Of a stretch of 64,000 bases of DNA, positions 28,776 through 61,213 are shown piece after piece. Each line of letters opens with the position of its first letter. Within the stretch, counting starts at the first letter, position 1. The notes beneath the pieces were generated by a model. The model was not told where the DNA came from, ran no database searches, and saw only the letters and a program-made list of their open reading frames with translations. The position numbers and the translations under genes were made by a program. The DNA comes from Bryobacterales bacterium (GTDB lineage Bacteria; Acidobacteriota; Terriglobia; Bryobacterales; Bryobacteraceae), in NCBI GenBank assembly GCA_947446025.1, contig CANFEY010000002.1, positions 1 to 64,000 on the forward strand. The letters run 5' to 3'.

Positions 28776-30728
28776 CTATCTCGGCCCGTAGTGCGGCACA
28801 GGCTGATCCCCTTCCAACGCCCCCAGGTCCGGGGCGCGGCCTTCGAAGCCGTCGTTGACTCCAGGCAAGCGCACTCCGGCGTCGATGGCGGCGGAGCCTG
28901 CACGCAAACGGAAGTCGAAGTCGGCGGGTTTGTAGAGCGTCTGCGGATTCGGCCCCGGGGGTGTCACCTTGCGGAACACGTCGAAGTCGACCAGCTTGCT
29001 GTGGGTGTCTTGGCCGGTGGCGGCGGAGAACTCAGGGAGCGTTTTGAACTGTTTGGTGACGCGGGCCTTGGCTTCGAGTTGCGCTTGCGCTTGCGTGGAG
29101 AGCGCCCCAAACTCGCCTACGTAGTTCGCCATCATGCCGGCAGGTGGGGAACTCCATGAAAACGAAAATGGCGCGCCTTCATTCGGGCGGAAGCCGTTGT
29201 AGTCGGAGCTGGAATAGTTGGTGCTGGTCTCCACCGAGAAGATCTCCGGCGTCTCGGTCTTGCCCAGGATCAGGTTGTTGCGGAAATGAAGATTCGATGT
29301 GGCCAGGAGCATCGGCTTCACCGCCGCGATGAAGGTATTGTGGTAGAGCGCGATGCCGGACGACGATGCGGTCAGCTTCACGGCGCCGCCTTCTGGTGCG
29401 TGATAGACGACGTTGCGGATGAAGTAGACGGGTCCGCCGAACATGGGCTGAACGCTGAGCGCGCGGTGGCCGTGGTTGAAGCAGCGGTTGCGGAAGATGC
29501 GAACGTTATGCGCTCCGCCGTCCGATTCCAGGCAGTTGTCTTCCATGTTGGAGATGTCGTTGCCGTAGAAATCGATGGACACCGGCATGCGATCACGGGG
29601 GCCGTCCGGGTTGCCGTAGGTGGCCACATCGACTCCGTCGTGGAAGCGCTCGATGCGATTGTAAGCGACCACATGGCCCGAGCCGTACACTTTCACCGCG
29701 TACTCGGAGACCAGCACCGGTGGATACTTTTCCAGAAAAGGCTGCCAGGTGGACCCTGTGAAGCCCATCAATACGTCGGCGTGGAACTTGCCGGTGAACG
29801 TGTTGTCGGCGATGTAGTAGTCCTTTGAGCCGGACCAATCCGTGTAGAGACCGCGGCCGATGTCTTCAAACTTACAGCGCTTGATGGTGAGGCCCACCGA
29901 ACCGGCGATGTTCTTGAGGCCTGCTTGGAAAGCGAGTTCGGTGTTGCGGATGGTGATGCCTTCGAAGTAGTTGTAGTTGGCGGCCATGACGTTGAAGAGG
30001 TTGTAGGCTCCGTCGCCGTCGAAGATTGCCTCGCCGTCGCCCGCCCCTTTGATGACGATGGGTCTCTCGGCCGTGCCGCTCTGCGTGAGAAAGTAGGTGC
30101 CGCTGGAGACCGTGCCGAGCGGTGCGCCGTAGCGGTAGCGGTTGTCTTTGTAGAGACCCGCGTGGACCAGGATCACGTCGCCGGGCTGCACGCGCGCGGG
30201 GTAGGTGTTGAAGTTGTCGGCTCCGTTGGACCCGGTGAAGTACGCTCCCAGAAGGCCTGTGAATGCGGGTTGTTGTTTCTCGCCTGTGAAGCCCGGCGGA
30301 TACACGTGGTAAGTCTTGCCTCCGGCCGCTGGGACAGGCTCGGAGCGAGTCTTCACCGTGACGGTCTGCGCCGCGGTGCCGGTGACTCCGTCGGGGTCGG
30401 ACATCACAAAGCGGGCTTCGTATTCGGTGGCCGGTTCAAGCTCGAAGATGCTGCCGGAGAACATGTGTGGTGTGACGTATCGCAGCGCGTTTTCGTTGAT
30501 GCGCTCGCCGCCGATGCGGAGCAGCGGCAAGCCGTCAGTCCACGTAGCCGCGCCCTTCTTGCGATAGGAGACGGCCACGGTGGCGTTGCGATTGTCGTCG
30601 CCGGTGATCGTCCACTCAAAGCCGAGCGAGATGAGCGTGGGCGGCTCGACGTAAAACTCGCCCACAGCGGTGTTGTTTGCGGCAGTGGCGATCGACGCGA
30701 GGATCAATGCGAGAGAAAGAGTCTTCAT
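28776..30728 (-). CDS. Secreted right-handed parallel beta-helix protein
   Basis: Roughly 650 residues. After the signal (MKTLSLALILASIATA) comes a fibronectin-like region (EWTITGDDNRNATVAVSYRK, ATEYEARFVMSDPDGVTG). A beta-helix of pectate-lyase type follows, with repeated N-x-F/I and H-N-x motifs (YFEGITIRNTE, YYIADNTFTGKFH, YGNDISNMEDNCLESDGG). The closing FRLRAGSAAIDAG and PDLGALEG are typical of the choice-of-anchor/pectin-lyase-fold family. Such proteins bind or cut polysaccharide. The ATG overlaps the stop of the PQQ dehydrogenase gene. Confidence 0.75.
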   Translation of the reverse strand: MKTLSLALILASIATAANNTAVGEFYVEPPTLISLGFEWTITGDDNRNATVAVSYRKKGAATWTDGLPLLRIGGERINENALRYVTPHMFSGSIFELEPATEYEARFVMSDPDGVTGTAAQTVTVKTRSEPVPAAGGKTYHVYPPGFTGEKQQPAFTGLLGAYFTGSNGADNFNTYPARVQPGDVILVHAGLYKDNRYRYGAPLGTVSSGTYFLTQSGTAERPIVIKGAGDGEAIFDGDGAYNLFNVMAANYNYFEGITIRNTELAFQAGLKNIAGSVGLTIKRCKFEDIGRGLYTDWSGSKDYYIADNTFTGKFHADVLMGFTGSTWQPFLEKYPPVLVSEYAVKVYGSGHVVAYNRIERFHDGVDVATYGNPDGPRDRMPVSIDFYGNDISNMEDNCLESDGGAHNVRIFRNRCFNHGHRALSVQPMFGGPVYFIRNVVYHAPEGGAVKLTASSSGIALYHNTFIAAVKPMLLATSNLHFRNNLILGKTETPEIFSVETSTNYSSSDYNGFRPNEGAPFSFSWSSPPAGMMANYVGEFGALSTQAQAQLEAKARVTKQFKTLPEFSAATGQDTHSKLVDFDVFRKVTPPGPNPQTLYKPADFDFRLRAGSAAIDAGVRLPGVNDGFEGRAPDLGALEGDQPVPHYGPR

Positions 30729-32524
30729 GGGAGTTCGAACAACCATACTGCGCCGCCTTCCGGGATCTCGGGATACTCACCGGGGAAGAGCCGATTGAGC
30801 GTGGCCTGCATGCCGCGTGCGTCGCCGCCCCAGCCGGACATTACCGCCAGATACTGCTTGCCGTCGACGGTGAACGTTGTCGGCGGGGCGAGAATGCCGG
30901 AGTTCGTCGGGAACTCCCACAGCAGCTTGCCGCTCTTGGCGTCGAAGGCGTGGATCTTACGGTCATTGGTTCCGCCGCTGAACACCAGACCTCCGGCGGT
31001 GGTGAGCATCGATCCCCAGTTGGGGCTCTTCACGTATTTGTGCGTCCACACGCGCTGGCCGGTATCGACGTTCCAGGCTTGCACTTCGCCGAAGTGGTCC
31101 GCGCCGGGGACCGTGAACGGCTGGCTGCCCTGCACGCCTACGAACGCCTTGCCCGCGGTGTACTTCATGTTGGCCGCGCCCATGTTCGACGCGCAGATGT
31201 TGTTGTTGGCAGGGATGTAGATCATGCGCGTCGTGGGATTGAACGCGATGGGGACCCAGTTCTTGCCGCCGTGCGTGCCGGGGCAGTAGTCGGCGCGTTT
31301 TTGCGTGCCGGGCTTGTGCGCGGGGTCGATGTCGGGCCGGCCCGTGACGGGGTCGAGGCCGCGAATCACGTTGTTGTAGACGTACGGCTTGCCGTCCAGG
31401 AACTTGATCGGACCAGTGGTGCGGTCGAGGAACCACAGGTACCCATCACGCGCGACGTTGACCAGGCCCTTCACGGTGCGGCCTCCGCGCTGGTAGTCAA
31501 TGAGCAGAGGCGGAGAGACTTCGTCGTAATCCCACGAATCGTTGGGATGGTATTGAAAGTAGCCTTTGATGGCTCCGGTGTTGATGTCGAACGCGATGGT
31601 GGACGACGTGTAAAGGTTGTCGCCGGGCCGGTTGTCGCCGATCGTCGGGCCTCCGTTGCCTGCGCCGAAGTAGGCAAGCTTGGTTGCGGGATCGTAGTTG
31701 CCGGTGACCCACACCGGCGCGCCCCCGGTTTTCCATGCGTTGCCGGCGGGCCAAGTGTCGCTGCCGGGTTCGCCGGGGGCGGGCACGGTGAAGGTGCGCC
31801 ACAACTCCTTGCCGCTCTCTGCATCGAACGCGGCGACGAACCCTCGGATGCCGTACTCGCCTCCGGACGCGCCCACCAGCACTTTGCCTTCCGCGACCAA
31901 CGGCGCGAGCGTGGTGTAATAGCCCTGCGTATTGTCGGCGATTTTCGCGGTCCAGATTTCCTTGCCGGTTTTGGCTTCCAGCGCGACCAGCACGGCTTCT
32001 CCCGCGGCCCAGTAGACGCGGTCACCGAGCAGCGCGACTCCACGATTCACTTCGTGCGGCACCTGCGCGCCGACCGGGCGCGGGCGGCGGTAGCGCCACA
32101 GCGCATTGCCGCTGCGGACGTCGATGGCGATGACTTGATTCATTGCCGTCGTCACAAACATCACTCCGCCGTTGACCAGCGGCGCGGCTTCGTGCGGACG
32201 AGTCTCACCGGTGGCGAAGACCCACTTCGGCTTGAGATTCTTGACGTTCGATGTGGAGATTTGTTCTAGCGGCGAATAGCCCCACCCATCATAGGTGCGG
32301 CGCAGCATCAGCCAAGCGCCGTCGGCGGGGTGGAGCAGGCGGCCTGCGGTCACGGGAGGGTAGTCACGCAGCGCTGCCGGGACGGGCGCGGGTGCTGCTG
32401 CAGGACCTGGCACCTGCTGCCCACTGAGCATCAGTCCCAACAGGGCACCCAGCAGCGCCATCAAACTCAGACTCCGAAGCGTGGGGATCAAGTCAGATCT
32501 CGGCTCGGAGACGGAAGTAGACAT
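30725..32524 (-). CDS. PQQ-dependent alcohol dehydrogenase, D-x-D (lanthanide-type) motif
   Basis: A 599-residue eight-bladed quinoprotein with an N-terminal membrane or signal segment (SLSLMALLGALLGLM). PQQ-family landmarks are RTYDGWGYSPLEQIS, ASGGEYGIRGFVAAFD and the tryptophan-docking repeats (GKELWRTF, GKLLWEFP). The active-site loop reads NDSWDYDEVSP: the catalytic Asp is followed two residues later by a second Asp. That D-x-D spacing is described for lanthanide-dependent XoxF/PedH enzymes, while calcium enzymes have another residue there. No adjacent Cys-Cys pair is seen. The gene lies 2 bp after the TonB receptor gene. Confidence 0.82.
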   Translation of the reverse strand: MSTSVSEPRSDLIPTLRSLSLMALLGALLGLMLSGQQVPGPAAAPAPVPAALRDYPPVTAGRLLHPADGAWLMLRRTYDGWGYSPLEQISTSNVKNLKPKWVFATGETRPHEAAPLVNGGVMFVTTAMNQVIAIDVRSGNALWRYRRPRPVGAQVPHEVNRGVALLGDRVYWAAGEAVLVALEAKTGKEIWTAKIADNTQGYYTTLAPLVAEGKVLVGASGGEYGIRGFVAAFDAESGKELWRTFTVPAPGEPGSDTWPAGNAWKTGGAPVWVTGNYDPATKLAYFGAGNGGPTIGDNRPGDNLYTSSTIAFDINTGAIKGYFQYHPNDSWDYDEVSPPLLIDYQRGGRTVKGLVNVARDGYLWFLDRTTGPIKFLDGKPYVYNNVIRGLDPVTGRPDIDPAHKPGTQKRADYCPGTHGGKNWVPIAFNPTTRMIYIPANNNICASNMGAANMKYTAGKAFVGVQGSQPFTVPGADHFGEVQAWNVDTGQRVWTHKYVKSPNWGSMLTTAGGLVFSGGTNDRKIHAFDAKSGKLLWEFPTNSGILAPPTTFTVDGKQYLAVMSGWGGDARGMQATLNRLFPGEYPEIPEGGAVWLFELP

Positions 32525-32526
32525 GT

Positions 32527-35500
32527 TTAGAACGTCACGCGCAGCACCAGCGTGCCTTGGCGCTCGCCGATCACGTTGCCTGTGGTGTTTATCGTTCCAT
32601 AACCCGAATTGTAGCGCCCGTCGGGAGCGCGGCCGATCACCGCGCCTCGGTTGGTAGATGGCCCAGGAATTTGAGTACGGTTGAAGGCGTTGGCGAATTC
32701 CGCGCGGAACATGATGGTGGCGCGTTCTTTGACGCGGAAGATGCGTCCCATGCTCATCGTCTCAGAGGGGCGGCGCTGCTGGCGGAAATCGCCGTAGCTC
32801 ATCGCCGAGGGAGTCCACTGGCCGTTGGGGGGATCGGTCCAGGCCGCTGGATTGAGGGTGATGGTGGTGCTCGGGTCGAAGCAGTGGCAGTTGAGATCCT
32901 GCAGGAACAGCGGCTGGCCGGGCACGCGAACCGCACGCGTCGCGCGCAACAGAGAGTTGGCGTTGTTGTTGCTGAGGATGCCCGGAGTCTCGAACGGAAT
33001 TCCGCTGGAATATTGCAGTACGGCTCCGATGGTCCAGTCGGCGACGGCGGCGTTCAGGAATTTATTGGCACCCCACTTGGGCAGCGTATAGTTTGTCGCC
33101 AGCACCATGGCGTGCGGACGGGAGGCGTCCGACAACTGCTTGTTCGTATTGCGATTGAACACGTCGTTGATGGAGCCGCCACCGCCATCGGTTTCAGCGC
33201 CCAGCACCAACTCCTTCGAGAAGGTGTAGGTCCAAGTGACGTCCAAGCCCCGCGAGAAGCGCTTGGTGGCTTTCATTTGCAGCGAATCGTACCAAGTCTT
33301 GCCCATAGCAGGTCCCAGGGCGGTGATGTTGCCGAACTGCGGAAACGGGCGCAGGGACTGGGCTACGGTCAACGCCGTCGGGAAGCCCGCATACGGGAGT
33401 TGATTGAAGAATCTTCCCGCTAGCGTGGAGTTGACTTGGCGGGAGAGCAAGTCTCGATCAGCTTGACTGTTGTACCAATCCAGGCCGTACTTGCTCTGAA
33501 GAATTTCCGGCCGCAGAGCGTTGTAGTCTACCAGCGTGCTGGTTCTCCACCACACGCCGCGGTTGGCCACATAGCTAGCTTCGATGACCAGGTCGCGAAT
33601 GATCTCGCGCTGCAAGCCTGCGCTCCACTGAACCATGCGTGCCGGTCGTCCGTAGTTTTGGTCTACTGCTTGAGGAGCGCCCGTGATGGTCCCGGGGGCA
33701 GGAAAGAGTCCGGCCCGCAAATCCGGCCACACCGGGCTGAAGGGAATGCCGCTGCGCAGCGTCATGGATGGATCGCCATAGGCCGGCGCACTGACGGTCT
33801 GAGCCGCGCCCACCGCTCCCTGAGATCCACCGCCGGTGCTGGAATAGGATAGGCCAAAGCCGGCGCGCAGCACGGTCTTTTCGTTCCACTGATACGCCAT
33901 GCCTAAGCGCGGAGCGTAGGCAAGCGGGTAATTCTTGGCGAATTTGCAGTTGCAAGTGGCTTCAAAGATCGACGCGCCCAGATGGTTGCCGGCGGTTGGG
34001 TTCGGAACGTTGGGGGAGAAGCTCGGCGACCGGCCGAATTGTTCGCGCGGATACGACATGATGTCCCAGCGCAGGCCGTAGTCCACGGTCAGCTTGCGGG
34101 TAAGCTTCCAGGTGTCCTGTGCGTAGCCGGCGAAGAAGTGCCGGCCGCCCCGCATGTTGGTGGGTTGCGCCAGGGTTACCGTGCTGACTTGCCCTAACAG
34201 GAAGCTGGCGTAGGGGAAGCCCACCAAGCGGCCATTTACATTCTGGCCCTGGGTGGAGGAATTGGCGGTCTGCTCCGCGCTGAATGCAAAGCTGCCGTTG
34301 GTGTTGGTGAAGATGGCCTGCGGATAACCTTCGATGCGTACCTCGCCGCCGAACTTCATGGTGTGGTTGCCGCGCACCCAACTCAAGCTGATGTTGCCGG
34401 TCGGTTTCGAGTTGCGGGTATTCTGCTGCGCAGCAGGTCCAAGGTTGCGCAAACCGCCGAGTGACTGGGCCGCTAGCAGTCCGGAAATGGCCGGGAAACG
34501 GCCTCCGTTGGCACCCACGGTGGAACCGGAAATGCCGAGTTCCTTCAGCATGTCGAAGTTGGTTACGAAGGAAAAGTCCTTATGGTCATTGCTGAGGTAG
34601 CCGGCACCGAAGTGCAGCAGCATTGTGGGCGTCAAGGTGTAATCCACGCTGGCACGAAGCGTGAACGATTCAACGAAAGAATTGCGGGTGACCGAGATCG
34701 GATCGGGGAAGCCTTCGGTTCCGCACACAGGGATGCAGTTCCGCACCGAGGTTTCGGTGGTGGACCAATAGAATGACGCCTTCATTTTCTGGTTGATGGT
34801 GTGGTCGATCTTGAGCGACGGGATCGGCGAGAGGCGGCTCTGCCTGAAGGGGTTCACATAGTTGTTGATCAGAGCTGTGGCACCGCCCAGATTTGCGCCC
34901 GGCACCAGATTCTGAATTCTGATGGAAGAGGTGTCGAAGCGTGCGGTGGGGATCGTGTTGTTGGGAAATTGCAGCCGCGCTCGGGTTCCATTCGCCAAGA
35001 GCCGCTCCGTACTGGGATCGAAGATCATGCCTTCATTCACGGGATTGCCCAGGCCGTCGGGCGTAGGCGCGTTGGTGGCGCTGAGGGTGCGGCCTGTCAG
35101 GGCGGTGTTGAAATTGCCTGCACGGTAAGCAGCGGTTGGTACGGTGCCGATTTGATTGTTGACCACCCCGTTTTCCCGATATTGCTCGTAGGTGTAGAAG
35201 AAAAAAGTCTTGTTGCGGCCGTCGTAGAATTTGGGAATCCGTACCGGTCCGCCGATGGTGCCGCCCCAATCGTTGCGGCGTTGCGTAGGTTTGAGCCAGT
35301 TGTAGGCCTGACGGGCCCACAGTGCTTCATTCACAAAGTAGTCGTAGGCCGACCCATGGTAGGCGTTCGTGCCGGAGCGCGTCGTGTAGTTGAAGAGGCC
35401 GCCTCCGGCTTGTCCGAACTCCGCCGCGTAGTTAGAGGTCTGCAACGACATCTCCTCAATCGCATCGATGCCGGGTTGAACGGACGCCTGGAATGCGGTC

Positions 35501-36105
35501 CCGACGACACTGGTCGCGATGTCTTGCCCGTCCAAACGGATTCCGTAGGAATTACTGGGAGCGCCGTTGATGCGCATCTGAGAGTTTACGGTGAAGAAAA
35601 CTCCGGGAGACAAGATGGCTGCGAACTGCGGGTTACGGAGTCCATAAGAACCGGCGGATTGAATGCCTACGCCCAAGATGGGGAGCGTGTTCAGCCGCTC
35701 CGTGGTGACGTTGCTGCTGATGGTGGCGCTTTCGGTTGTCAGCAAAGAAGACTCGGCTGTGACGGTGACGGATTCGGAGGCTGTGCCGACCTCCAGGACG
35801 ACGTCTTCGCGAACCGTCTGGGCGACTTGTACGCTTAGATTCTGGTGAACGAAGGTCTTGAATCCAGGCACGGTGACGGTGAGCGTGTAGCTGCCGATCG
35901 GCAACTGCGCGAAGCTGTAGTTGCCCGTTGCGCTGGTGCCCGCTTCGTAGGAAGCGCCCGTCTGCGTGTTCAACAACTGCATGGGCGCGCTCGCGACCAC
36001 TGCTCCCGCCGCGTCCGAAACCGTACCCGTGATCGACCCGCGATCCGTCTGTGCAAAGGCCCCGACCGCAGCCGTCAAAAGTACAGCAATCCTCAGTATG
36101 CGCAT
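32527..36105 (-). CDS. Oar-like TonB-dependent outer-membrane receptor
   Basis: About 1,192 residues from the ATG that opens a signal peptide (MRILRIAVLLTAAVGAFAQ). The N-terminus is a carboxypeptidase-regulatory-like beta sandwich (GSITGTVSDAAGAVVASAP, LPIGSYTLTVTVPGFKTF), then a TonB plug (QMRINGAPSNSYGIRLDGQD) and a large barrel ending in the aromatic LVLRVTF required for outer-membrane insertion. Acidobacteria have many such receptors. Its position directly before the PQQ dehydrogenase suggests uptake of the substrate, cofactor or metal for that enzyme. Confidence 0.85.
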   Translation of the reverse strand: MRILRIAVLLTAAVGAFAQTDRGSITGTVSDAAGAVVASAPMQLLNTQTGASYEAGTSATGNYSFAQLPIGSYTLTVTVPGFKTFVHQNLSVQVAQTVREDVVLEVGTASESVTVTAESSLLTTESATISSNVTTERLNTLPILGVGIQSAGSYGLRNPQFAAILSPGVFFTVNSQMRINGAPSNSYGIRLDGQDIATSVVGTAFQASVQPGIDAIEEMSLQTSNYAAEFGQAGGGLFNYTTRSGTNAYHGSAYDYFVNEALWARQAYNWLKPTQRRNDWGGTIGGPVRIPKFYDGRNKTFFFYTYEQYRENGVVNNQIGTVPTAAYRAGNFNTALTGRTLSATNAPTPDGLGNPVNEGMIFDPSTERLLANGTRARLQFPNNTIPTARFDTSSIRIQNLVPGANLGGATALINNYVNPFRQSRLSPIPSLKIDHTINQKMKASFYWSTTETSVRNCIPVCGTEGFPDPISVTRNSFVESFTLRASVDYTLTPTMLLHFGAGYLSNDHKDFSFVTNFDMLKELGISGSTVGANGGRFPAISGLLAAQSLGGLRNLGPAAQQNTRNSKPTGNISLSWVRGNHTMKFGGEVRIEGYPQAIFTNTNGSFAFSAEQTANSSTQGQNVNGRLVGFPYASFLLGQVSTVTLAQPTNMRGGRHFFAGYAQDTWKLTRKLTVDYGLRWDIMSYPREQFGRSPSFSPNVPNPTAGNHLGASIFEATCNCKFAKNYPLAYAPRLGMAYQWNEKTVLRAGFGLSYSSTGGGSQGAVGAAQTVSAPAYGDPSMTLRSGIPFSPVWPDLRAGLFPAPGTITGAPQAVDQNYGRPARMVQWSAGLQREIIRDLVIEASYVANRGVWWRTSTLVDYNALRPEILQSKYGLDWYNSQADRDLLSRQVNSTLAGRFFNQLPYAGFPTALTVAQSLRPFPQFGNITALGPAMGKTWYDSLQMKATKRFSRGLDVTWTYTFSKELVLGAETDGGGGSINDVFNRNTNKQLSDASRPHAMVLATNYTLPKWGANKFLNAAVADWTIGAVLQYSSGIPFETPGILSNNNANSLLRATRAVRVPGQPLFLQDLNCHCFDPSTTITLNPAAWTDPPNGQWTPSAMSYGDFRQQRRPSETMSMGRIFRVKERATIMFRAEFANAFNRTQIPGPSTNRGAVIGRAPDGRYNSGYGTINTTGNVIGERQGTLVLRVTF

Positions 36106-36241
36106 AGCCCCTCCAGGAAACCTGATTTGGTAGAGTATACGCCTCGCGAGGATGGGCGTCAAAGGGTACGGAGTACAAGCCAGGTTAGCTCGCCCTACCC
36201 TCCGCGCAACGCGCCCGCTTGAACAAATTGCCCGCCGTCTA

Positions 36242-37234
36242 TTACGGCTTCAACGATGCCGTGTAAGCTGCGATGTTGACCATGTCTTCCACGGTGAGCT
36301 TCTCGACCACCGCCTTCATTAGCGGACTGTATCCGCCGCGCCGCACGCCGGACTTGATGTCGTGCATCTGGCGGACGATGTAGCTGGGGGAGCGGCCCGC
36401 CAGGAACGGAACGTTGCCCAGTCCCTTCAAGCCTTCGCCGTGACAGATCGCGCACTGGATCGTCTTCGCCGACGCCTTGGTCGCCAGAGCCTCGCCCTTC
36501 TTCACGGCACCGATCGGCACGTAGGCCGTGAACGGCGACTGCGAGTCACGCAACTCGGTGCGCTCGAAATCGTCGGGGACTTCGATGATGCGCTGGCCGA
36601 TGGGCTCGGAGGTGTCTTTGATCGGAACGAGCATTCCGGTGAACACGTAAGTCTTCGGCACCGTCTTGGTTTCCACCACCTTGATCCACGGCTTGTAGGT
36701 CAACTTGGAGAAATATGCCGCAGCGATGCGGACTTCGGCTTCGTTGCTCACCAGCGAGAGCTTGCGCATGTTCTCCGGCGGACCCATGTTCGGCTCGGCT
36801 GATTTGCGGTTCCCGGTTCGGTAGGCGGTGACTTGCGCTTCAATGTATTCGGCGGGGAGGCCCGCGAGGCTGGAGTTTTCGGGTTTGCCTTGGCCGTTGG
36901 GCAAGTGGCAGAAACCGCAGGCGCGGATGTCCGGCGCCCGGCCGTGGCCCACGATGTCCGGCATGGGCGGATGATCGTCATGCCAGTCCGGGGGATTGAA
37001 TCCATCGGTGGTCTGCTTCGCGGTGAGTCCCTTGGTGCTGTTCGGAACCCGATGCAGCGTGGGGTCGTTGTTCGGAGCGGCGGGCGGCGCTGGAGCGCTG
37101 GTGGGATAGGCCCACGGCATGGGCGTCGCAGGCGTCGGCGCGACGGGCGCGGGTCCCTGCTTTCCCTGTTGGGCAGTCAACCACGCGGTGCAGGCGGCCA
37201 GGCCGGCGGAAAGGAACAGCAATCGAAGCTTCAT
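36242..37234 (-). CDS. Dihaem c-type cytochrome
   Basis: A 330-residue exported cytochrome with two haem sites, CGFCH (~residue 104) and CAICH (~residue 263). A Pro/Ala-rich linker (APTPATPMPWAYP) follows the signal. The second domain continues GEGLKGLGNVPFLAGRSPSY, as in cytochrome c4/c-class I domains. It lies upstream of the TonB receptor and PQQ dehydrogenase (136-bp gap) in the same direction, so it is a good candidate for their electron acceptor. Confidence 0.85.
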   Translation of the reverse strand: MKLRLLFLSAGLAACTAWLTAQQGKQGPAPVAPTPATPMPWAYPTSAPAPPAAPNNDPTLHRVPNSTKGLTAKQTTDGFNPPDWHDDHPPMPDIVGHGRAPDIRACGFCHLPNGQGKPENSSLAGLPAEYIEAQVTAYRTGNRKSAEPNMGPPENMRKLSLVSNEAEVRIAAAYFSKLTYKPWIKVVETKTVPKTYVFTGMLVPIKDTSEPIGQRIIEVPDDFERTELRDSQSPFTAYVPIGAVKKGEALATKASAKTIQCAICHGEGLKGLGNVPFLAGRSPSYIVRQMHDIKSGVRRGGYSPLMKAVVEKLTVEDMVNIAAYTASLKP

Positions 37235-37259: not shown

Positions 37260-38096
37260 TTATGCCACGGACGGAGGCCCCGGTTTTTGCCGCGGCGAGT
37301 GCCTTGCCGTGATGGGATGCAGAAGCTGACCTGCCAGGTCAGAAGGTAGCGGCCCGTCGACTCCGTATTGCGTTGGCCAGGAGTTGGGCAAATAGAGAGT
37401 GCCGAACAGCTTGTCCACCCAAGGCAGCAGGGCGGCGTAATTCTTGTTTGTGTTTTCCGGCCGGTCATTGGTGTGGTGCCAATGGTGAAACGCGGGGGAG
37501 GAGACCAGGTATTCGAGCCAGCCGAAGCGCCACTTGATATTGGCGTGGATGAAAAATCCCCAGAAGTTGCCGAGCAAAGTGACCAGTACCGGCACCAAAT
37601 CGGCCGTGCTGCCGGTGGGTTGCGCCAAACCCAACAGATACATGGGCACCAATCCGCACACACGGACGAACACCATGTCGATGGGATGAGCTCGGGAATT
37701 CACCAGCCAGTCGATCTCCTCCGCGCCGTGGTGAATCGAGTGGAATCGCCACAGCAGCGGGATTTGATGCGTCCACCGGTGGCCCCAGTAGGAGCCGATG
37801 TCCCCAACCATCATTGCGAGCGGCAGGCGAAGCCAGCCAGGAATTCCCGCAGTCCACGCATAAAATCCTATTTGCGTCTGGCTGTGCATCAGGCCGGCCA
37901 ACACGGAGATGGGCAAGACCAGCAGGAGTTTGGGCAGAAGACCGCTCAGGAAGTAGTAGGCCAGGTCCGTCCCAAACCCCCTTCGAAGAACTCGTTGGGG
38001 CCGCAGCACCCATACTTTTTCCACGGGAACAAACACAGCCAGGAGCAGCACCAGCCAAACTCCCAGCCTGAGGACATCTTGAATAAGAGGTGCCAT
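37260..38096 (-). CDS. Fatty acid hydroxylase / sterol desaturase family protein
   Basis: A 278-residue membrane di-iron protein with the full set of histidine boxes: GHRWTHQ, HSIHHGAEE, and FHHWHHTNDRPENTNKNY. Four or more helices flank them. The family hydroxylates or desaturates lipids and sterol-like substrates, often in alkylglycerol or carotenoid metabolism. The start at 38096 is chosen because the open frame beyond it runs through the next gene. It sits between the cytochrome and a PEP-CTERM protein without clear functional linkage. Confidence 0.82.
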   Translation of the reverse strand: MAPLIQDVLRLGVWLVLLLAVFVPVEKVWVLRPQRVLRRGFGTDLAYYFLSGLLPKLLLVLPISVLAGLMHSQTQIGFYAWTAGIPGWLRLPLAMMVGDIGSYWGHRWTHQIPLLWRFHSIHHGAEEIDWLVNSRAHPIDMVFVRVCGLVPMYLLGLAQPTGSTADLVPVLVTLLGNFWGFFIHANIKWRFGWLEYLVSSPAFHHWHHTNDRPENTNKNYAALLPWVDKLFGTLYLPNSWPTQYGVDGPLPSDLAGQLLHPITARHSPRQKPGPPSVA

Positions 38097-38113
38097 GCCT
38101 CCGCTTGGGACTC

Positions 38114-38953
38114 CTAGCAGCGGCGCTTCTTGAAGGCTGCCAGCGCGAGCATTCCACCACCCATCAGCACGAAGGTGCTCGGCTCGGGTACTACTTCCGT
38201 TATAGCGACTCCGTCCAACAGAACCACCGGAGGAGCGCCATTCGGAGTTCCGCCGGCGAGAAACGTCAAGGCCTGCGACGTGCTGCTGGCGATGAAACTC
38301 ATTGTTTCCTGGCGCCATGCCTGAAAGTCGTGGTTCGGGTTAGACAGCACCGTCGAACGTATCGTTGTGCTGCCAAACGTAACATCCCAATATTCTGTAG
38401 TCGCCCCGTCCGTGCCATTTTGTTGGGCGGCAGCCATGTAGAAAGAGATCGCGTAGGTCGAGCCGATATTGAGTCCAGTTACCGTTTGAGAGATGGATGC
38501 ATTGTAGTTTGAGTCGCCGTCAATGGCGACGAAGTTTCCACCAGTCGGGCTGTTTTGAACAGCATGAACAGTGTTCCATAGTCCGATGTTGTTGTTGAAC
38601 GCAGATCCGCCGGTGCCTGCAAACAGAATCGATGCAACGGTACCTGTGCTGCCGCACCCGAATGCGGTTCCCCCTCCCGCGATAGAGCCATTCTGCGCTT
38701 TGCAGGTGGAACTCCACGATGCCAGGTTCGAAATGCACGTGGTGTTGCCGGTCTGGGCGCAAATGAAGCCACCGTTGACGCCCATCGTGCTGTTGGAATT
38801 GCCCGCCGTGCCGGACAAGGTCTCAAAGTTGCCGTTTGAAAAGACAGGCGCACCAACCGCAGTGGATGTCATCGCGAACAGGCCGGCCAATAGCAGCGCC
38901 AATGCTGAAATGCGCATCCCGTGAGTTAATTTCACAATAGAGACCATTCTCAA
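38114..38953 (-). CDS. PEP-CTERM sorting-domain protein
   Basis: A 279-residue secreted protein with an N-terminal signal (ISALALLLAGLFAMTSTAVGA) and a typical C-terminal sorting tail: VPEPSTF, a hydrophobic helix, then FKKRR. Such tails are cut by an exosortase and the protein is anchored or released with exopolysaccharide. The body is a beta-sandwich rich in Gly, Ser, Thr and Asn (NGNFETLSG, GLNIGSTYAISFYMAA), as in carbohydrate-binding DUF642-like proteins. The exosortase itself is not in the window. Confidence 0.8.
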   Translation of the reverse strand: MRMVSIVKLTHGMRISALALLLAGLFAMTSTAVGAPVFSNGNFETLSGTAGNSNSTMGVNGGFICAQTGNTTCISNLASWSSTCKAQNGSIAGGGTAFGCGSTGTVASILFAGTGGSAFNNNIGLWNTVHAVQNSPTGGNFVAIDGDSNYNASISQTVTGLNIGSTYAISFYMAAAQQNGTDGATTEYWDVTFGSTTIRSTVLSNPNHDFQAWRQETMSFIASSTSQALTFLAGGTPNGAPPVVLLDGVAITEVVPEPSTFVLMGGGMLALAAFKKRRC

Positions 38954-40809: not shown

Positions 40810-41991
40810 ATGAAGCTTAGCATCTTGCTCGTAGCAGTCACTGGCGTAGCGCTCGCGCAGTCGACCTACGTCGGCTCCGAGAAGTGCAAAACCTGCCATC
40901 CCGCGATGTATGAGCGCTGGAGCAAGACCCGCATGGCAAATGTGGTGCGCGATCCCAAGGCCCACCCGGAAGCAGTGCTGCCGGATTTCAGCAAGCGCGA
41001 TCCGTTGGTGAACTTCACTGTGGCCGACGTCGCGCTTGTGTACGGGAGTAAGTGGAAGCAGCGCTACTTCACGCGGCGGGGGGATGACTACTATCCGTTG
41101 GGCGTCACATGGGATGTGGGCAAGCAGGTCTTCCGCCCGTATCTGGTGGCTCCGAACACGGATTGGTGGGTGCCGCTGTTCCCGCCCGATAACAACGGCC
41201 GGCCCACGTCGCAGCTGTGCGATGGCTGCCATTCGGTGAACTTCAACATCCAGACCAAGACGCCGACGGAATGGAACGTGGGCTGCGAGAAGTGCCATGG
41301 GCCGGGCTCGGCGCACGCGGCTCGGCCCGCGCAGACGAACATCGTGAATCCGTCGCGGCTCGATTCCATGCAGGCGACGAACATTTGCATTCAGTGCCAC
41401 TCGCAAGGCCAGCCCGTGACCAATCCCATCAACGGCAAGTATTACGATTGGCCGGTCGGGTTCCAGGCGGGTATGGACCTGAAGCAGTTCTGGAAGCTGG
41501 AAGAATACAAGCTGGGCACGGAGACGTTCACCCATTTCGCCGACGGCAGCGCGCATAAGAATCGGATGCAAGGCAACGATTTCGTGCAGAGTGCGATGTA
41601 CACGCATGGCGTCGCGTGCAACAGCTGCCATGATCCGCACGGTACACCCAACAACGCGGACCTCATCAAACCCGCGAACACCCTGTGCCTAACCTGCCAC
41701 AGCCAGAATTCGCCCAACGGTCCGCGCGGAGCCACCGTCCAGGACCACACGCATCACGCCCCCGGCAGCGCAGGCAATGAATGCGTCGGCTGCCACATGC
41801 CCAAGATCGCGCAGCAGATCGCCGACACGAACGTGCGCAGCCACACCTTCCGCTTCATCCCGCCCGCGGAGACGGAAGAGTTGAAAGTCCCTAACGGCTG
41901 CAATTCGTGCCATGCGGATAAGACGACAGGCTGGGCTCGGGAGCAATTGAAGAGTTGGCCGAATGTGTCGGCGTTTAGGGTGGCGAGGTAG
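40810..41991 (+). CDS. Octahaem c-type cytochrome
   Basis: A 393-residue exported cytochrome with eight CxxCH sites: CKTCH, CDGCH, CEKCH, CIQCH, CNSCH, CLTCH, CVGCH and CNSCH. Extra histidines (TFTHFADGSAH, DHTHHAPG) can serve as distal ligands. The order and spacing resemble the multihaem 'doubled CxxCH' family distantly related to NrfA and hydroxylamine oxidoreductase. No Cys-x-x-Cys-Lys active-site haem is visible, so an electron-transfer role is likelier than nitrite reduction. A small secreted protein gene follows after 1 bp. Confidence 0.85.
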   Translation: MKLSILLVAVTGVALAQSTYVGSEKCKTCHPAMYERWSKTRMANVVRDPKAHPEAVLPDFSKRDPLVNFTVADVALVYGSKWKQRYFTRRGDDYYPLGVTWDVGKQVFRPYLVAPNTDWWVPLFPPDNNGRPTSQLCDGCHSVNFNIQTKTPTEWNVGCEKCHGPGSAHAARPAQTNIVNPSRLDSMQATNICIQCHSQGQPVTNPINGKYYDWPVGFQAGMDLKQFWKLEEYKLGTETFTHFADGSAHKNRMQGNDFVQSAMYTHGVACNSCHDPHGTPNNADLIKPANTLCLTCHSQNSPNGPRGATVQDHTHHAPGSAGNECVGCHMPKIAQQIADTNVRSHTFRFIPPAETEELKVPNGCNSCHADKTTGWAREQLKSWPNVSAFRVAR

Positions 41992-55741: not shown

Positions 55742-56215
55742 CTAAGGTTTCCTTCCTTCGATCTGCGCGTCGGTGTTCTCAATGTGGGTCAAGTGGATGC
55801 GATACGCCGCAGTCGCGAAGCCCGCCGCGGGCGCATCGAAACGGGCCGCGATCAGGCGCTTCGCCGTCTCCCCGCCTTTGATCCGGTCCCCGATACCCAG
55901 CGCCGGATTCGGCATCGCCAACTTACTGTACTCCAGAAATCGCGCCGCCTCCGCCTTGCTCAAAACATCGCCGCGCGCCCCATCCACGCGCTCCACGCTG
56001 AGTTCCTTCACCTCGAACCCCACCGCCGACGGATTCTGCGCCGTGAAATCCAGAATCACCAGCGTGGCCTCCGGCGTCAGTTCCGCCACCCGCACATCGG
56101 TGATCGCTCCGGTCAGCGTGAGCAGGTGATTCTTGTTGATGGTGACGGTGCTGTAAAGTGCCGCCCCAATCACCACCAGGGCCACGGCCAACGTTGCCAG
56201 GAATTGTTTGCTCAC
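55742..56215 (-). CDS. Membrane-anchored protein of unknown function
   Basis: About 157 residues. The GTG at 56213-56215 follows the AI-2E stop by one base with GAGG just before. One N-terminal helix (FLATLAVALVVIGAALYSTVT) anchors an extracytoplasmic domain with LDFTAQNPSAVGFEVKELSVE, a late-embryogenesis-abundant/LEA14-like strand pattern. No function known; translationally linked to the permease gene. Confidence 0.6.
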   Translation of the reverse strand: MSKQFLATLAVALVVIGAALYSTVTINKNHLLTLTGAITDVRVAELTPEATLVILDFTAQNPSAVGFEVKELSVERVDGARGDVLSKAEAARFLEYSKLAMPNPALGIGDRIKGGETAKRLIAARFDAPAAGFATAAYRIHLTHIENTDAQIEGRKP

Positions 56216-56216
56216 C

Positions 56217-57353
56217 TCAATCCCCCAACAACTTTCCGTAGGGCTCCAACCCCTCAACGTGATCGCAGACCGCCTTGATGCCCGCCGTAATCGGAATCGC
56301 CAGCAGCAGCCCGATGCCGCCCCACAACATGCCCCACAACATCAAAGCCAGCGTCACCACCAGCGGATTCAAGTGTACCCGCGATCCGACGAACTTCGGG
56401 TACAGCAGATTCAACGCGAACAAATGCAGCACCGCCACACTGACTGACAGGAACAGGTAAACCGTCGGGTCCGTCGAATAGGGCAGGGCAGCCACCAGCG
56501 GAGGAGCCAGCGCCAGCGGCAGCCCGATATACGGCACCAGGCTCAGGAACCCGCTCATCGGCGCGATAATCGGCCAGTACGGCAGCTTCACCGCCCCAAA
56601 CAGGATCGCGCTCATCACCGTCAGCAGCAGGCCCAGTAGGAAATTGCCCACCACGTACGCCCGCACCATATCTCCCACCCCGTCCAGCGCTTTCATCACC
56701 GTGTAGCGGGGCTCGCCTTCCAGCGTCACAATCAGCCGCGACTTCAGATGGTCGCCCCAGCTTAAGATAAAGTACACCAGGAACGGCACGAACGAAGCCA
56801 TCAGGATCACGCTGTAGACGGACTGCAAGTAGTCATACGCATAACGCAGGAATGCCGTAGGCTCCTGCTGAATGCGCACTTCCTGCACCGCTGGAGGTGC
56901 AATCGCGTCCGGGGCGCGCTTGCCCCGCACTGCTACCGTGGGTGCGGCCACCGGCACCCGATCCTGAAACCGCCGGGGCACGATGTTCTTATAGACGTTC
57001 TCCTGGAACCCCTCCACCCGGATCGCCGCGCCTTCCACGATCTGGTTCAGCCGCTCGCCATATACCGGCAAGTCATCCACGAATGCCTGCGCTTCTATGT
57101 AGACTCCCAGCCCCGCCAAGTACAGACTCGTGAGCCACAACGCGCACGCCAGGAAGCTGGCCAGCCCGCGAGGCACCCGCATCCGCATGAACAGCCGCAC
57201 CACTGGCTCCAGGAGGAACGCGATGATGAACGCCACAATGACGGTGATGAAGAAAACGCGCCCGTAGTACAGCAGCGCCACGCACGCTCCCGCTGCCAGC
57301 GCGCCCGTGGCGAACCGGTAGCTCTTTTCGGTACTGGAACTTGGAGCGTACAC
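56217..57353 (-). CDS. AI-2E family transporter (PerM-type)
   Basis: A 378-residue permease with about eight helices (FFITVIVAFIIAFLLEPVVR, GMLWGGIGLLLAIPITAG). The long periplasmic loop and PYWPIIAPMSGFLSLVPYIG are typical of the family, which exports autoinducer-2 or sodium-coupled solutes. GTG 57353 is favoured, with GGGAG just before; further upstream the frame runs through ruvX. Divergent from ruvX with a 28-bp gap. Confidence 0.82.
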   Translation of the reverse strand: MYAPSSSTEKSYRFATGALAAGACVALLYYGRVFFITVIVAFIIAFLLEPVVRLFMRMRVPRGLASFLACALWLTSLYLAGLGVYIEAQAFVDDLPVYGERLNQIVEGAAIRVEGFQENVYKNIVPRRFQDRVPVAAPTVAVRGKRAPDAIAPPAVQEVRIQQEPTAFLRYAYDYLQSVYSVILMASFVPFLVYFILSWGDHLKSRLIVTLEGEPRYTVMKALDGVGDMVRAYVVGNFLLGLLLTVMSAILFGAVKLPYWPIIAPMSGFLSLVPYIGLPLALAPPLVAALPYSTDPTVYLFLSVSVAVLHLFALNLLYPKFVGSRVHLNPLVVTLALMLWGMLWGGIGLLLAIPITAGIKAVCDHVEGLEPYGKLLGD

Positions 57354-57381
57354 CCGTCTCCCAATATACTGAGAGGAGTAC

Positions 57382-57834
57382 GTGCTCCACAATGAATTTC
57401 CAGTGAATGGCCGCGTTTTGGCGCTGGATCTAGGTAAAAAACGCATCGGATTGGCCCTGAGTGATCCGCTGGGCATCACTGCCCAGGGTCTGCCGACGCT
57501 GCAGCGCACCACCCTGCGGGCCGACGTGGCCGAAATTGACCGCATCGCCGCCGAGCAAGGTGTTAGCCTGATACTCATGGGCCTGCCCCTCCACATGGAT
57601 GGCCGGGAAGGCCGTCAGGTGCAGTACACCCGCGAATTCGCCGAGTACCTTACAGGCCGCACGGGCCGTAAGGTGCAGTTCTGGGATGAACGGATGACGT
57701 CGGTCGAAGCGGGCCGCGTGCTGCGCGATAGCGGCATCAGCATCGCCAAACGCGCCAAGGCCGTGGATAAACTCTCTGCCCAGATTCTACTGGAGAGCTT
57801 CCTGAGCGTGGGCGACCCCGTGCAGGAGTATTAG
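57382..57834 (+). CDS. ruvX: Holliday junction resolvase-like RuvX (YqgF)
   Basis: A 150-residue RNase-H-fold nuclease. GRVLALDLGKKRIGLALSD gives the first acidic residue, SLILMGLPLHMDGREG the second, and FWDERMTSVEAGRVL and KAVDKLSAQILLESFL the last ones. It resolves junctions and processes pre-16S rRNA. GTG start preceded by AGGAG. It is 10 bp ahead of mltG. Confidence 0.9.
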   Translation: MLHNEFPVNGRVLALDLGKKRIGLALSDPLGITAQGLPTLQRTTLRADVAEIDRIAAEQGVSLILMGLPLHMDGREGRQVQYTREFAEYLTGRTGRKVQFWDERMTSVEAGRVLRDSGISIAKRAKAVDKLSAQILLESFLSVGDPVQEY

Positions 57835-57844
57835 GTTCAGGAGT

Positions 57845-58879
57845 ATGAGAGTGTTTCGCTGGCTAGTCCGTATCACCGTTGCCCTCGTTGCCCTCGCCGC
57901 CGCGGCGGGCGCAACCGGCTACTACTTGCTTTCGCAGCCCTTCCGGGGCTTTGAAGGCGAGAAGATGCTGGAGATCACGCGCGGCTCCGGCTCGCGCGCC
58001 ATTGCAAAGCAACTCACCGATGCCGGCCTCATCCAGAGCGAGTGGATGTTCCTGGCCGCCCGCGCCGTTCAACCCGGCGTCATCCTGCAGGCCGGTGAGT
58101 ATCAGTTTCAGGACGCCGCCAACGTGTGGCAAATCATCGAACGCCTGCGTAAGGGCGATGTCTATACCTTTGAGTTCACCATTCCCGAAGGCAGCAATAT
58201 CTGGGACATCGCGCGCCTGTTGGAGAGCGGCGGCATCATGAAGGAGAAGGATTTCCTGGCCGCCGCGGCCGACCCCACTCTCATCCGCGACATCGACCCC
58301 GCCGCCGAATCGCTCGAAGGCTACCTCTTCCCCGCCACCTACCGCCTCTCGCGCAAAACCACCGCGCAGGACCTGTGCCGAATGATGGTGCAGCAGTTCC
58401 GGCGCCAGTGGAAGCAGGTGGGTGGCGAAATGCCCCCGCATGACGCCGTCACCTTGGCATCCCTGGTGGAGGAAGAAACCGGTGTGGCTTCGGAACGCGA
58501 ACTGGTCTCCGGCGTTTTCTCCAACCGCCTGAAGAAAGGCATGCAACTCGCCTGCGATCCCACCGTGATGTACGCCTCCCGCCTGCTCGGCAAGCGCAAC
58601 GCGAACGTGATCTACAAGACCGACCTCAAGCGCGAGCATCCCTACAATACCTACCTCAACACCGGCCTCCCCCCCGGACCCATTTCGAGCCCCGGAGCCG
58701 CCTCCATCGCGGCCGCGCTGCACCCCGCCGCTACCGAGGCCATCTATTTCATGGCCCGCCCGGACCGCAGCGGCCATGTTTTCTCCGCCACCCTGGCCGC
58801 GCATAACCGCGCCGTGCAAAACTTCCGCAATGCCACCGCCGCCTCCAAAGCCGCCGAAGCCACAAGCCAAGCGAATTGA
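57845..58879 (+). CDS. mltG: Endolytic murein transglycosylase MltG (YceG-like)
   Basis: A 344-residue inner-membrane protein with one N-terminal helix (ITVALVALAAAAGATGYYLL), a LysM-like region (FEFTIPEGSNIWDIARLLES) and the catalytic YceG domain with the active Glu of SLVEEETG, then VFSNRLKKGMQLACDPTV and NTYLNTGLPPGPISSPG. It cleaves nascent peptidoglycan strands. AGGAG precedes the ATG. The last 50 bp overlap the next gene. Confidence 0.92.
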   Translation: MRVFRWLVRITVALVALAAAAGATGYYLLSQPFRGFEGEKMLEITRGSGSRAIAKQLTDAGLIQSEWMFLAARAVQPGVILQAGEYQFQDAANVWQIIERLRKGDVYTFEFTIPEGSNIWDIARLLESGGIMKEKDFLAAAADPTLIRDIDPAAESLEGYLFPATYRLSRKTTAQDLCRMMVQQFRRQWKQVGGEMPPHDAVTLASLVEEETGVASERELVSGVFSNRLKKGMQLACDPTVMYASRLLGKRNANVIYKTDLKREHPYNTYLNTGLPPGPISSPGAASIAAALHPAATEAIYFMARPDRSGHVFSATLAAHNRAVQNFRNATAASKAAEATSQAN

Positions 58880-59279
58880 GCTGGCCCGCTGGTTGCAGCA
58901 ACACCCCGGCGTCATCGGGCCGCCGCAGTGCACCGCCCTGCGCGCCGCCCTCGCCCCCATCTCCGAAAGCTACCTGCGCCGCCTCCTGCGGGACTCCTCC
59001 GCTACCCTCCACCCATTGGTGGAAGGCACCCGCCAGGAAAACCTGCACGAATTGGAGCGCACCCTGCTCGCTTTATTGGGAGAGGAACGCCGCGCCGCCC
59101 GCACTCTTATCATTGAAGCGAAGCAACACGCCCGATGGGCGCTGAAGAAACACCCTGAAAAGGAAGAAATGATTCTGTGGATGCTGACCTGGCTGGAAAA
59201 TCCAGGCATCTTCCCGCAATGGCTGGCGATCCGGAAAGAGGCCCTGCGTGCGCAAACCCAAACCACCGAAACTGCTTGA
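58830..59279 (+). CDS. Hypothetical protein between mltG and recX
   Basis: A 149-residue protein starting inside the mltG 3' end; a later start is possible because residues 1-15 are a Pro/Lys stretch. It is helical and basic (LRAALAPISESYLRRLLRDS, ARTLIIEAKQHARWALKKHP), with many Arg, Trp and Glu residues; it ends in ALRAQTQTTETA. No family is recognised. Overlap with both neighbours suggests translational coupling within the mltG-recX operon. Confidence 0.6.
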   Translation: MPPPPPKPPKPQAKRIELARWLQQHPGVIGPPQCTALRAALAPISESYLRRLLRDSSATLHPLVEGTRQENLHELERTLLALLGEERRAARTLIIEAKQHARWALKKHPEKEEMILWMLTWLENPGIFPQWLAIRKEALRAQTQTTETA

Positions 59280-59784
59280 ACTGGAAGCCTTGAAGAGCTA
59301 CGCCGCCATGGCCCTGGCCTCGCGCGCCCAGTCCACCTCCGAACTGCGCACCCGCCTGCGCAAAAAGGCCGCCCGCCCGGAGGACGCAGAAGAAATCCTC
59401 GCCTACCTCAAAGAATCCGGCTACGTCGACGACCAACGCTTCGCCGGAGCCTTCGCCGAGTGGCGCAAGGAAAATCAGGGCTTCGGCAAATCCCGCGTGG
59501 TCCGCGATCTCATGTCCCGCCGCGTGGCCCCCGCCGTCGCCCAAGCCGCCGTCGAAGCCGCGTTCCAAGGCTCCGACGAAGTCCAGCTCATCGAAGAATT
59601 CATCGCCCGCCGCTACCGCGGCAAAGACATGAAGGTCTACCTGGCCGAACAGAAAAACCTAGCCTCCGCCTTCCGCCGCCTCCGCACCGCAGGCTTCTCT
59701 TCCAGCAACTCCATCAAGGTCCTAAAACGCTACGCCTCCGCCGCCGAGGAGATCGACGAAGAAATGGTGTCTGACACCATTTAA
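59248..59784 (+). CDS. recX: Regulatory protein RecX
   Basis: A 178-residue protein with three tandem three-helix units: YAAMALASRAQSTSELRTRL, ILAYLKESGYVDDQRFAGAF, and FGKSRVVRDLMSRRVAP. It limits RecA filaments. It starts with GTG overlapping the previous gene. The last five residues and stop (Val-Ser-Asp-Thr-Ile-stop) are read from the palindromic repeat, so the ancestral C-terminus was probably replaced or extended. Confidence 0.85.
   Translation: MRKPKPPKLLELEALKSYAAMALASRAQSTSELRTRLRKKAARPEDAEEILAYLKESGYVDDQRFAGAFAEWRKENQGFGKSRVVRDLMSRRVAPAVAQAAVEAAFQGSDEVQLIEEFIARRYRGKDMKVYLAEQKNLASAFRRLRTAGFSSSNSIKVLKRYASAAEEIDEEMVSDTI
59762..59782. repeat. GGTGTCTGACACC palindromic repeat, copy 3
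   Basis: AAATGGTGTCTGACACCATTT is identical to the copy at 13285. It lies at the tail-to-tail junction of recX and the pirin gene, and it provides the last codons of recX and overlaps the two stop codons. Confidence 0.82.
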
Positions 59785-60659
59785 TTCCCGATCCGCCCCA
59801 TCTTGCCGGACTGGTAATCCTCCACCGCCTGCTGCACTTCTTCCCGCGTGTTCATCACGAACGGACCATACCGCGCCACCGGCTCCCCAATCGGCTCCCC
59901 GGAGAGCAACAGCACCTGCACCGGTTCCGCCGAATCCGACGCCGCCTCCAGCCGCACCGCGTCCGCATCCCGAGCGAACGTCACCATGTTGTGCGCCTCC
60001 ACCCGCTTTCCGCCAAAAACGCCCGAGCCCTGGAAAACATACGCCAGCGCATTCGCCGACTTCGGCACCGCCTGCTCCACACCCGCCCCCGGAGCCAGCG
60101 TGAAGTGCAGATACTGAATCGGAATCCGAGTATCAATCACCGCCCGCGCCCCCAGCGCCTCGCCCGCGATCACCCGCACATGGACTTTCCCATCGGCGCT
60201 GCTCGCCTCCGGAATCCTAGCCTTCGGCACCTCTTGATACCGGGGTGCAATCATCTTGTCCCGCTTCGGCAAGTTCACCCAAATCTGGAACCCATGCATG
60301 TGCCCGCCCGTCCGCAGGAACTCCGCCTCGGGATTTTCAGAGTGCACCAGCCCCGCTCCGGCCGTCATCCACTGCACATCCCCCGGCTCAATTTTCCCCG
60401 CGTGCCCATGCGAATCCCGATGCTCAAACCGCCCGGACAGCATGTAGGTGATCGTCTCAAACCCCCGATGCGGATGGTCCGGGAACCCCTTGGCCGAATT
60501 CGGAGCTACATCCATCGGCCCCATCTCATCCAGCAGCAGGAACGGATCAAATGAGGACAGCGCGTGCGTGTGCGAAGGAAACGGCCGGTGTACCAGCACT
60601 CCAGCCCCCTCCATCACCGGCGAGCCTGGAACGATTTGAGAGACGGATCGAGTCATCAT
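59781..60659 (-). CDS. Pirin family protein
   Basis: About 292 residues with two cupin domains. The first holds the metal site GFPDHPHRGFETITYMLSG (His, His) with ENPEAEFLRTGGHMHGFQIW; the C-terminal cupin is divergent (LAPGAGVEQAVPKSANALAY). Members act as quercetinases or as transcription cofactors. ATG 60659 or 60656 opens the protein; farther upstream is the divergent PilZ gene. Confidence 0.85.
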   Translation of the reverse strand: MMTRSVSQIVPGSPVMEGAGVLVHRPFPSHTHALSSFDPFLLLDEMGPMDVAPNSAKGFPDHPHRGFETITYMLSGRFEHRDSHGHAGKIEPGDVQWMTAGAGLVHSENPEAEFLRTGGHMHGFQIWVNLPKRDKMIAPRYQEVPKARIPEASSADGKVHVRVIAGEALGARAVIDTRIPIQYLHFTLAPGAGVEQAVPKSANALAYVFQGSGVFGGKRVEAHNMVTFARDADAVRLEAASDSAEPVQVLLLSGEPIGEPVARYGPFVMNTREEVQQAVEDYQSGKMGRIGN

Positions 60660-60724
60660 GTCTAGTTTAGATGCACCTCCTGCCGTTTCGATGCACACGC
60701 GCTTCTGCTATCCTCTACGCAGCG

Positions 60725-61189: not shown

Positions 61190-61212
61190 CCCCATCGCGC
61201 AAGCGTGGGGCT
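61188..61212. repeat. AGCCCC-type hairpin repeat, copy 2
   Basis: AGCCCCATCGCGCAAGCGTGGGGCT forms a 5-6 bp G+C stem. Its reverse complement matches the element at 1388-1412 with only a few differences. Here too it separates convergent genes and overlaps the TAG stop of the PilZ gene. Confidence 0.6.
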
Positions 61213-61213
61213 G

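Follow-up and report, generated by a model that had tools for sequence, protein, structure and literature searches.

A PQQ alcohol dehydrogenase with a lanthanide-type metal site in Bryobacterales, from a branch that lacks the vicinal disulfide and often adjoins a Rieske gene

Background

The described alcohol dehydrogenases closest to the enzyme considered here, all dependent on pyrroloquinoline quinone (PQQ), are PedH of Pseudomonas putida KT2440 and the XoxF enzymes. A D-x-D loop is used as a lanthanide marker among them (PMC11996626), XoxF genes have XoxG and XoxJ as neighbours (PMC10875860), and in ExaA a vicinal disulfide has been linked with the passage of electrons to cytochrome c550 (PMC12997753, citing Mennenga 2009). 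Both the enzyme family and D-x-D enzymes of Acidobacteria are already known from PMC10875860 and PMC11996626. Here we examine P0002, a member of this family encoded in a stretch of 64,000 nucleotides (the window) that forms positions 1 to 64,000 of contig 2 (CANFEY010000002.1) of a Bryobacterales bacterium, whose genome (GCA_947446025.1) has 4.43 Mb and is 99.88% complete. We consider it probable, with some reserve, that P0002 is a lanthanide-type enzyme of a Rieske-coupled branch, that it belongs to a subclade of its own from which the Rieske gene is missing, and that the outer-membrane receptor encoded directly before it, P0003, is an incidental local neighbour from a large paralogous family and not a dedicated importer of lanthanide or PQQ.

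Results and discussion

Metal site of the dehydrogenase

Judged by family models, alignment and trees, P0002 (599 residues, positions 30725..32524, minus strand) is a PQQ alcohol dehydrogenase in a distinct branch of the methanol/ethanol family: it scores 546.4 bits against TIGR03075 (cut-off 480.05), and its nearest solved structure is PedH (phmmer 8.6e-106; VIA-align Z 45.8). A reading of the letters alone (the sequence-only reading) had taken its loop WDYD for the D-x-D signature of lanthanide-dependent enzymes, and this is borne out, as W331-D332-Y333-D334 (codons at 31523..31534) align with the D-x-D of PedH (6zcv/6zcw) and XoxF (6dam), while 1kv9 and 1kb0 carry D-x-T at that place. Together with E223 (31856..31858) and N290 (31655..31657), D332 and D334 complete the lanthanide-type set, and an arginine at 359 is kept as well, an assignment made from alignment and not from geometry. 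All four ligands recur in the other 22 rows of the subfamily that come from the genus and order, the 23rd row (L036) being of an outgroup type with Cys-Cys. We stress that D-x-D alone is a weak marker here because it occurs in 36 of the 40 quinoprotein genes aligned from this genome; the whole E/N/D-x-D set is found in 11 of the 40.

A branch without the vicinal cysteines

Where PedH, XoxF 6dam and nine plasmid references have a Cys-Cys pair, P0002 has Val-Pro, followed by a histidine that is invariant in its branch (V155-P156-H157, codons at 32054..32062). We scanned named genomes for relatives and kept the best 80 of 418; the cysteine pair is absent and His157 present in P0002 and in 79 of the 79 relatives with letters at that place (L272 is cut short), and the glutamate and arginine of the site do not vary across the 81 rows. 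The branch receives a support of 100 in the Shimodaira-Hasegawa-like approximate likelihood-ratio test (SH-aLRT) in two quick trees whose outgroups sit on long branches, and it falls outside the XoxF- and PedH-like references (support 100), which are plasmid relatives, PedH itself not being in the trees. Five of the 80 records carry titles of doubtful kin (L234, L237, L240, L257, L284), that is, actinobacterial or Bordetella names inside the acidobacterial part of the tree, and are kept outside both taxon counts given below. Two of them, L257 and L284, come from metagenome-assembled genomes under the names Bordetella parapertussis and Bifidobacterium breve, and their dehydrogenases fall amid those of Acidobacteria.

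The Rieske neighbour

In 28 of the 80 named loci tblastn found a Rieske gene immediately upstream of the dehydrogenase gene on the same strand, at gaps of 13-492 bp (L245 and L274 are partial); clustering of neighbours alone gave the same Rieske family in 19 loci. Sorted by title, the gene accompanies all 16 proteobacterial or rokubacterial members, 11 of 59 acidobacterial ones and one of the five doubtful ones (L234), ten of the 80 loci having less than 900 bp upstream (L219, L227, L232, L242, L246, L247, L254, L267, L272, L274). A Rieske neighbour is also present in genome G054 (locus L046). The seven neighbour proteins that were scanned all match PF00355. The family carries the motif C-x-H-x2-C ... 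C-x-C-H with both extra cysteines and has, near its N terminus, an arginine pair that by eye resembles a twin-arginine translocation (Tat) signal; of the proteins with a solved structure, Thermus Rieske protein 1nyk is closest to the family (hmmsearch 1.3e-48).

The association was also seen on plasmids, in a sample made up of nine of the 12 best rows (H56 is the same place as H1) and seven more from a spread list. A Rieske gene lies in the fetched stretch of 7/7 members without the cysteine pair versus 1/9 with it (Fisher p 0.0014, relatedness ignored). It stands upstream in Roseomonas, Azoarcus and Methylobacterium aquaticum (an unannotated record) and downstream in three Paracoccus records and Alteromonas; an aldehyde dehydrogenase gene follows in Azoarcus and the three Paracoccus records, and those plasmid loci that came with annotation list no cytochrome b gene. 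A Deinococcus member that has both the cysteine pair and the Rieske gene groups with the disulfide-less branch (support 91), which suggests that the Rieske pairing preceded the loss of the disulfide.

The lineage of P0002 is different. For comparison within the genus we fetched 20 loci of P0002 homologues (61-74% identity), one of which is a paralogue in the window's own genome. No Rieske gene was found in the window or in these 20 loci (L062 has only 617 bp upstream), and none of the 26 rows of the terminal acidobacterial clade that holds P0002 (support 100) has a Rieske neighbour; P0002 therefore appears to be a derived member without this neighbour. Its genome contains one weak Rieske match (E 1e-8).

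From these observations we infer that the disulfide-less branch consists of Rieske-coupled quinoproteins. P0002 is predicted to be exported, to bind PQQ and a lanthanide and to oxidise an alcohol. In the branch at large, the electrons of reduced PQQ would go to a Rieske 2Fe-2S protein that is dedicated to the enzyme and encoded by the neighbouring gene, and not by way of a disulfide to cytochrome c; in the derived acidobacterial subclade of P0002 the Rieske neighbour would have been lost and another periplasmic acceptor put to use, and PQQ would be scavenged from outside the cell. The wider form of the claim is that a phylum-spanning branch, with both D-x-D and D-x-A members, reduces a dedicated exported Rieske protein instead of cytochrome c, that this pairing is older than the loss of the disulfide and that the lineage of the window later lost the Rieske gene; towards this we lean only slightly. 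If it is true, quinoprotein biochemistry gains a new electron acceptor, in lanthanide-type and calcium-type members. The disulfide-less, Rieske-adjoining branch is a natural test of the role of the vicinal disulfide in electron transfer. A search of the open-access literature, which left most subscription papers outside, found no description of a Rieske protein as partner to an alcohol dehydrogenase of the PQQ type; bc1 Rieske proteins are treated in PMC10715153, PMC5023235 and PMC4013037, the last of which also treats NirD.

Several points weigh against this interpretation. With regard to the metal, 25 D-x-D genes of the same genome lack the E or the N ligand, m-GDH, which also has D-x-D, forms complexes with Ca, Mg, Zn and Sr (PMC11996626), and the structure model of P0002, whose mean predicted local distance difference test score (pLDDT) is 81.3 overall, falls to 74 in the D-x-D block (residues 331-340) and to 54 in residues 291-300. 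The invariance of D, D and N in the 81 rows is partly built in by the two search patterns through which the 80 loci were found, and these loci are themselves the best of 418 relatives. With regard to the branch, two further genes of the same genome with E/N/D-x-D (L006 and L016) are also without the cysteine pair, and the calcium pattern D-x-A stands in four of the seven plasmid members without the disulfide (Paracoccus, Alteromonas); the branch is thus not uniformly lanthanide-type, and the Rieske pairing is not tied to lanthanides. With regard to the partner, just 11 of 59 acidobacterial members have the Rieske gene (11 of 50 without the nine loci having less than 900 bp upstream), the plasmid loci were chosen by kinship to P0002 and so are not independent, and adjacency of genes does not prove that electrons pass between their products.

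Organisation of the locus

Read along the minus strand, the genes stand in the order cytochrome P0004 (36242..37234), receptor P0003 (32527..36105), dehydrogenase P0002 and P0001 (28776..30746), a right-handed beta-helix protein whose gene overlaps that of the dehydrogenase by 22 bp and which, although the fourth gene within 28776-37234, had no part in the reasoning of the sequence-only reading. The receptor frame ends at 32527 and the dehydrogenase ATG is at 32524, with 2 bp between them. Before the receptor stands a promoter-like site, TTGACG-17-TATACT (36134..36162, minus strand), which agrees with the consensus at 10 of 12 positions; it is a consensus match, which does not by itself demonstrate function, and four such sites were found in the stretch against 2.0 expected. 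The listed receptor start, TTG at 36162, coincides with the -35 hexamer of this site, and the ATG at 36105, behind GGAGG, is the likelier start. As the site stands directly before that ATG, the receptor, dehydrogenase and beta-helix genes are probably on one transcript and the cytochrome gene on another.

Elsewhere in the window, positions 37260-38318 (minus strand) encode a protein of the fatty-acid hydroxylase family whose best NCBIfam model, the ornithine lipid hydroxylase OlsE, is below cut-off; an open reading frame with a PEP-CTERM motif (38114-38953, minus strand) overlaps its start. In 56001-64000 the GC skew falls to -0.145 and -0.233, under the rest of the window.

The beta-helix protein and a possible role in carbohydrate use

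In four of the seven rows of the clade of P0002 (support 97) a beta-helix gene lies within 1.3 kb of the dehydrogenase gene (P0002, L210, L212 and L271). Conversely, 4 of the 21 beta-helix genes fetched from the genus (5 of 22 counting the window) have a quinoprotein gene no more than 800 bp away, in a set that excludes one match in G005 at a contig end; for 4/21 the probability is 0.0007 if a rate of 2% per gene is assumed and 0.009 if the rate is 4%, relatedness ignored. Both proximities would suit a carbohydrate module with an oligosaccharide as the cargo of the receptor; the beta-helix protein would then work on that oligosaccharide, and either the sugar or an alcohol that is set free would be the substrate of the quinoprotein. 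Against such a module, orientation varies by locus, L210 and L271 have other reading frames between the two genes, and no carbohydrate enzyme was recognised beside P0001 among the scanned proteins of the window; moreover PF13229 denotes a fold and not an activity, P0001 has no relative in the PDB at E<=1, and its structure model is too poor (pLDDT 45.3) to serve in a fold search. We regard the module as possible but rather doubtful. Since orientation varies, the proximity is perhaps a loose functional link, which may concern carbohydrate use, rather than a fixed operon. The beta-helix family as a whole (28776-30746, L129-L138, L302-L312) is found repeatedly beside different quinoprotein genes, and its C-terminal YGPR is invariant in 10 aligned rows.

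The cytochrome as a possible acceptor

The dihaem cytochrome that had been placed before receptor and enzyme is indeed there: P0004 has two CxxCH motifs and lies upstream of both. Its position two genes upstream of P0002, and the donation of electrons to cytochrome c550 by ExaA, an enzyme of the same kind (PMC12997753), could make it the acceptor that replaced the Rieske protein. However, relatives of P0004 with 85, 73 and 64% identity in G014, G007 and G006 stand apart from any dehydrogenase gene, though these genomes have P0002 homologues, and the promoter-like site separates P0004 from the receptor. At the eight loci of cytochrome relatives examined, neither a receptor nor a dehydrogenase gene adjoins; at L149 a quinoprotein fragment is present at a distance of 7.7 kb. 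We therefore think it unlikely that P0004 took the place of the Rieske protein. The window encodes a second cytochrome, multihaem with eight CxxCH motifs (40810-41991, plus strand), next to a 272-residue protein without a Pfam match.

PQQ supply

Neither pqqC nor pqqE was found over cut-off in any of 23 genus genomes, and the cofactor therefore probably comes from outside the cell. Weak pqqC-like matches occur in six of these genomes (no higher than 52.4 bits, with the cut-off at 240), and weak pqqE matches, from radical-SAM proteins, in all 23. The same pqqC search is positive in 13 of 247 genomes of the phylum, which shows that it works; the pqqE search is without such a control. About 41 quinoprotein genes are nevertheless present in the genome of the window.

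The missing synthesis genes would also suit a P0002 that is a PQQ-less, non-catalytic propeller like the acido-empty quinoproteins, whose model TIGR04528 is its second-best in NCBIfam. The score against that model is, however, 384.1 bits under a cut-off of 650, and P0002 keeps all metal ligands and the arginine, unlike the 25 D-x-D genes that lack E or N; we consider a non-catalytic P0002 very unlikely.

The receptor and the proposed uptake unit

The sequence-only reading had described a TonB receptor ending 2 bp before the enzyme. The spacing is correct, and the name is a matter of family resemblance, because P0003, an Oar-like receptor, matches OMP_b-brl_4 and CarboxypepD_reg but no TonB plug model at E<=0.001. 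No solved relative of P0003 was found at E<=1.

It had further been proposed that this receptor could supply P0002 with a lanthanide chelate or PQQ from outside, as an uptake/oxidation unit new in Acidobacteria. In our survey 2 of the 20 genus loci have a receptor like P0003 no more than 1 kb from the dehydrogenase: in L052 it stands on the same strand, about 330 bp upstream, and in L057 the two genes converge. Three further loci have none, and no family adjoins P0002 in more than a few loci of the genus, in a count for which the frame calling passed over the dehydrogenase of L046. Conversely, none of ten loci around receptor relatives (58-61% identity) has a P0002-type gene, although in one of them a quinoprotein of 33% identity is encoded at a distance of 2.2 kb. 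The genome holds about 60 places of PF25183 receptors and 41 of quinoproteins, and one receptor-quinoprotein pair within 600 bp was observed against about 0.67 expected (41 × 60 × 1200/4.43e6), a count that omits six weak quinoprotein matches (<120 bits); an alternative null of 3.1 pairs permits overlapping genes and is too high.

The signature of the PQQ importer PqqU comes from PMC12124388, which reports PqqU within Acidobacteria only from Vicinamibacteria. Its three residues (Y/F/W99, R304, R365) are absent as a set in P0003 and in 12 receptor candidates; P0003 has G, I and T instead, in an alignment that is rough for so distant a barrel, and on this signature it is ruled out as PqqU. One candidate, L172, has two of the three residues, and L176 was possibly read in the wrong frame. 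Across the genome PqqU has at best a weak match (E 7.6e-12, 24% over residues 22-268).

Since the pair is not conserved at dehydrogenase, receptor or cytochrome loci and the PqqU residues are missing, the unit is unsupported. The D-x-D dehydrogenases of Acidobacteria are in print (PMC11996626, PMC10875860); PMC10875860 describes XoxF3 regions in Acidobacteria and names a TonB receptor for them in a figure legend. The 2-bp spacing, the probable co-transcription, the E/N/D-x-D site and the need for imported PQQ in a genus without pqqC or pqqE over cut-off speak for a receptor that serves the adjacent enzyme, yet with the pair unconserved, its adjacency near chance, the PqqU signature missing in P0003 and the 12 candidates, and PqqU reported within Acidobacteria from Vicinamibacteria only, we hold this to be the least probable of the alternatives. 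A receptor-dehydrogenase pair of a different kind is found on Sphingopyxis plasmid pSFD01 (L209), where a TonB receptor gene precedes a PQQ dehydrogenase gene by 75 bp, followed by an aldehyde dehydrogenase gene; this dehydrogenase has the cysteine pair and D-x-T.

Comparison with known systems

Set against E. coli PqqU (YncD), a TonB-dependent PQQ importer, P0003 is without Y99, R304 and R365 and is an Oar-like protein of about 1,190 residues. From the acido-empty quinoproteins of group A (TIGR04528), P0002 differs in its score under the cut-off and in the presence of its metal residues. The Rieske neighbour of the branch shares C-x-H-x2-C ... C-x-C-H and both extra cysteines with Thermus 1nyk and the bc1-type Rieske proteins; unlike them, it is encoded beside a PQQ dehydrogenase and has two arginines near its N terminus. 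The XoxF enzymes (6dam, 6oc5, 4mae) have the propeller fold of P0002 (Z 43-44) and, in 6dam, E/N/D-x-D; 6dam keeps the cysteine pair, unlike P0002, and the XoxF-type references are far off in the trees. PedH is the closest likeness, with a fold superposition of Z 45.8, a root mean square deviation of 2.2 over 527 residues, 38% identity and the same E/N/D-x-D set. The PedH-like L204 and L205 nonetheless form a clade separate from the branch of P0002, and the gene that adjoins L204 is that of the cytochrome c-550 pedF; PedH has the vicinal Cys-Cys, whereas the branch of P0002 is without it and recurrently adjoins a Rieske gene.

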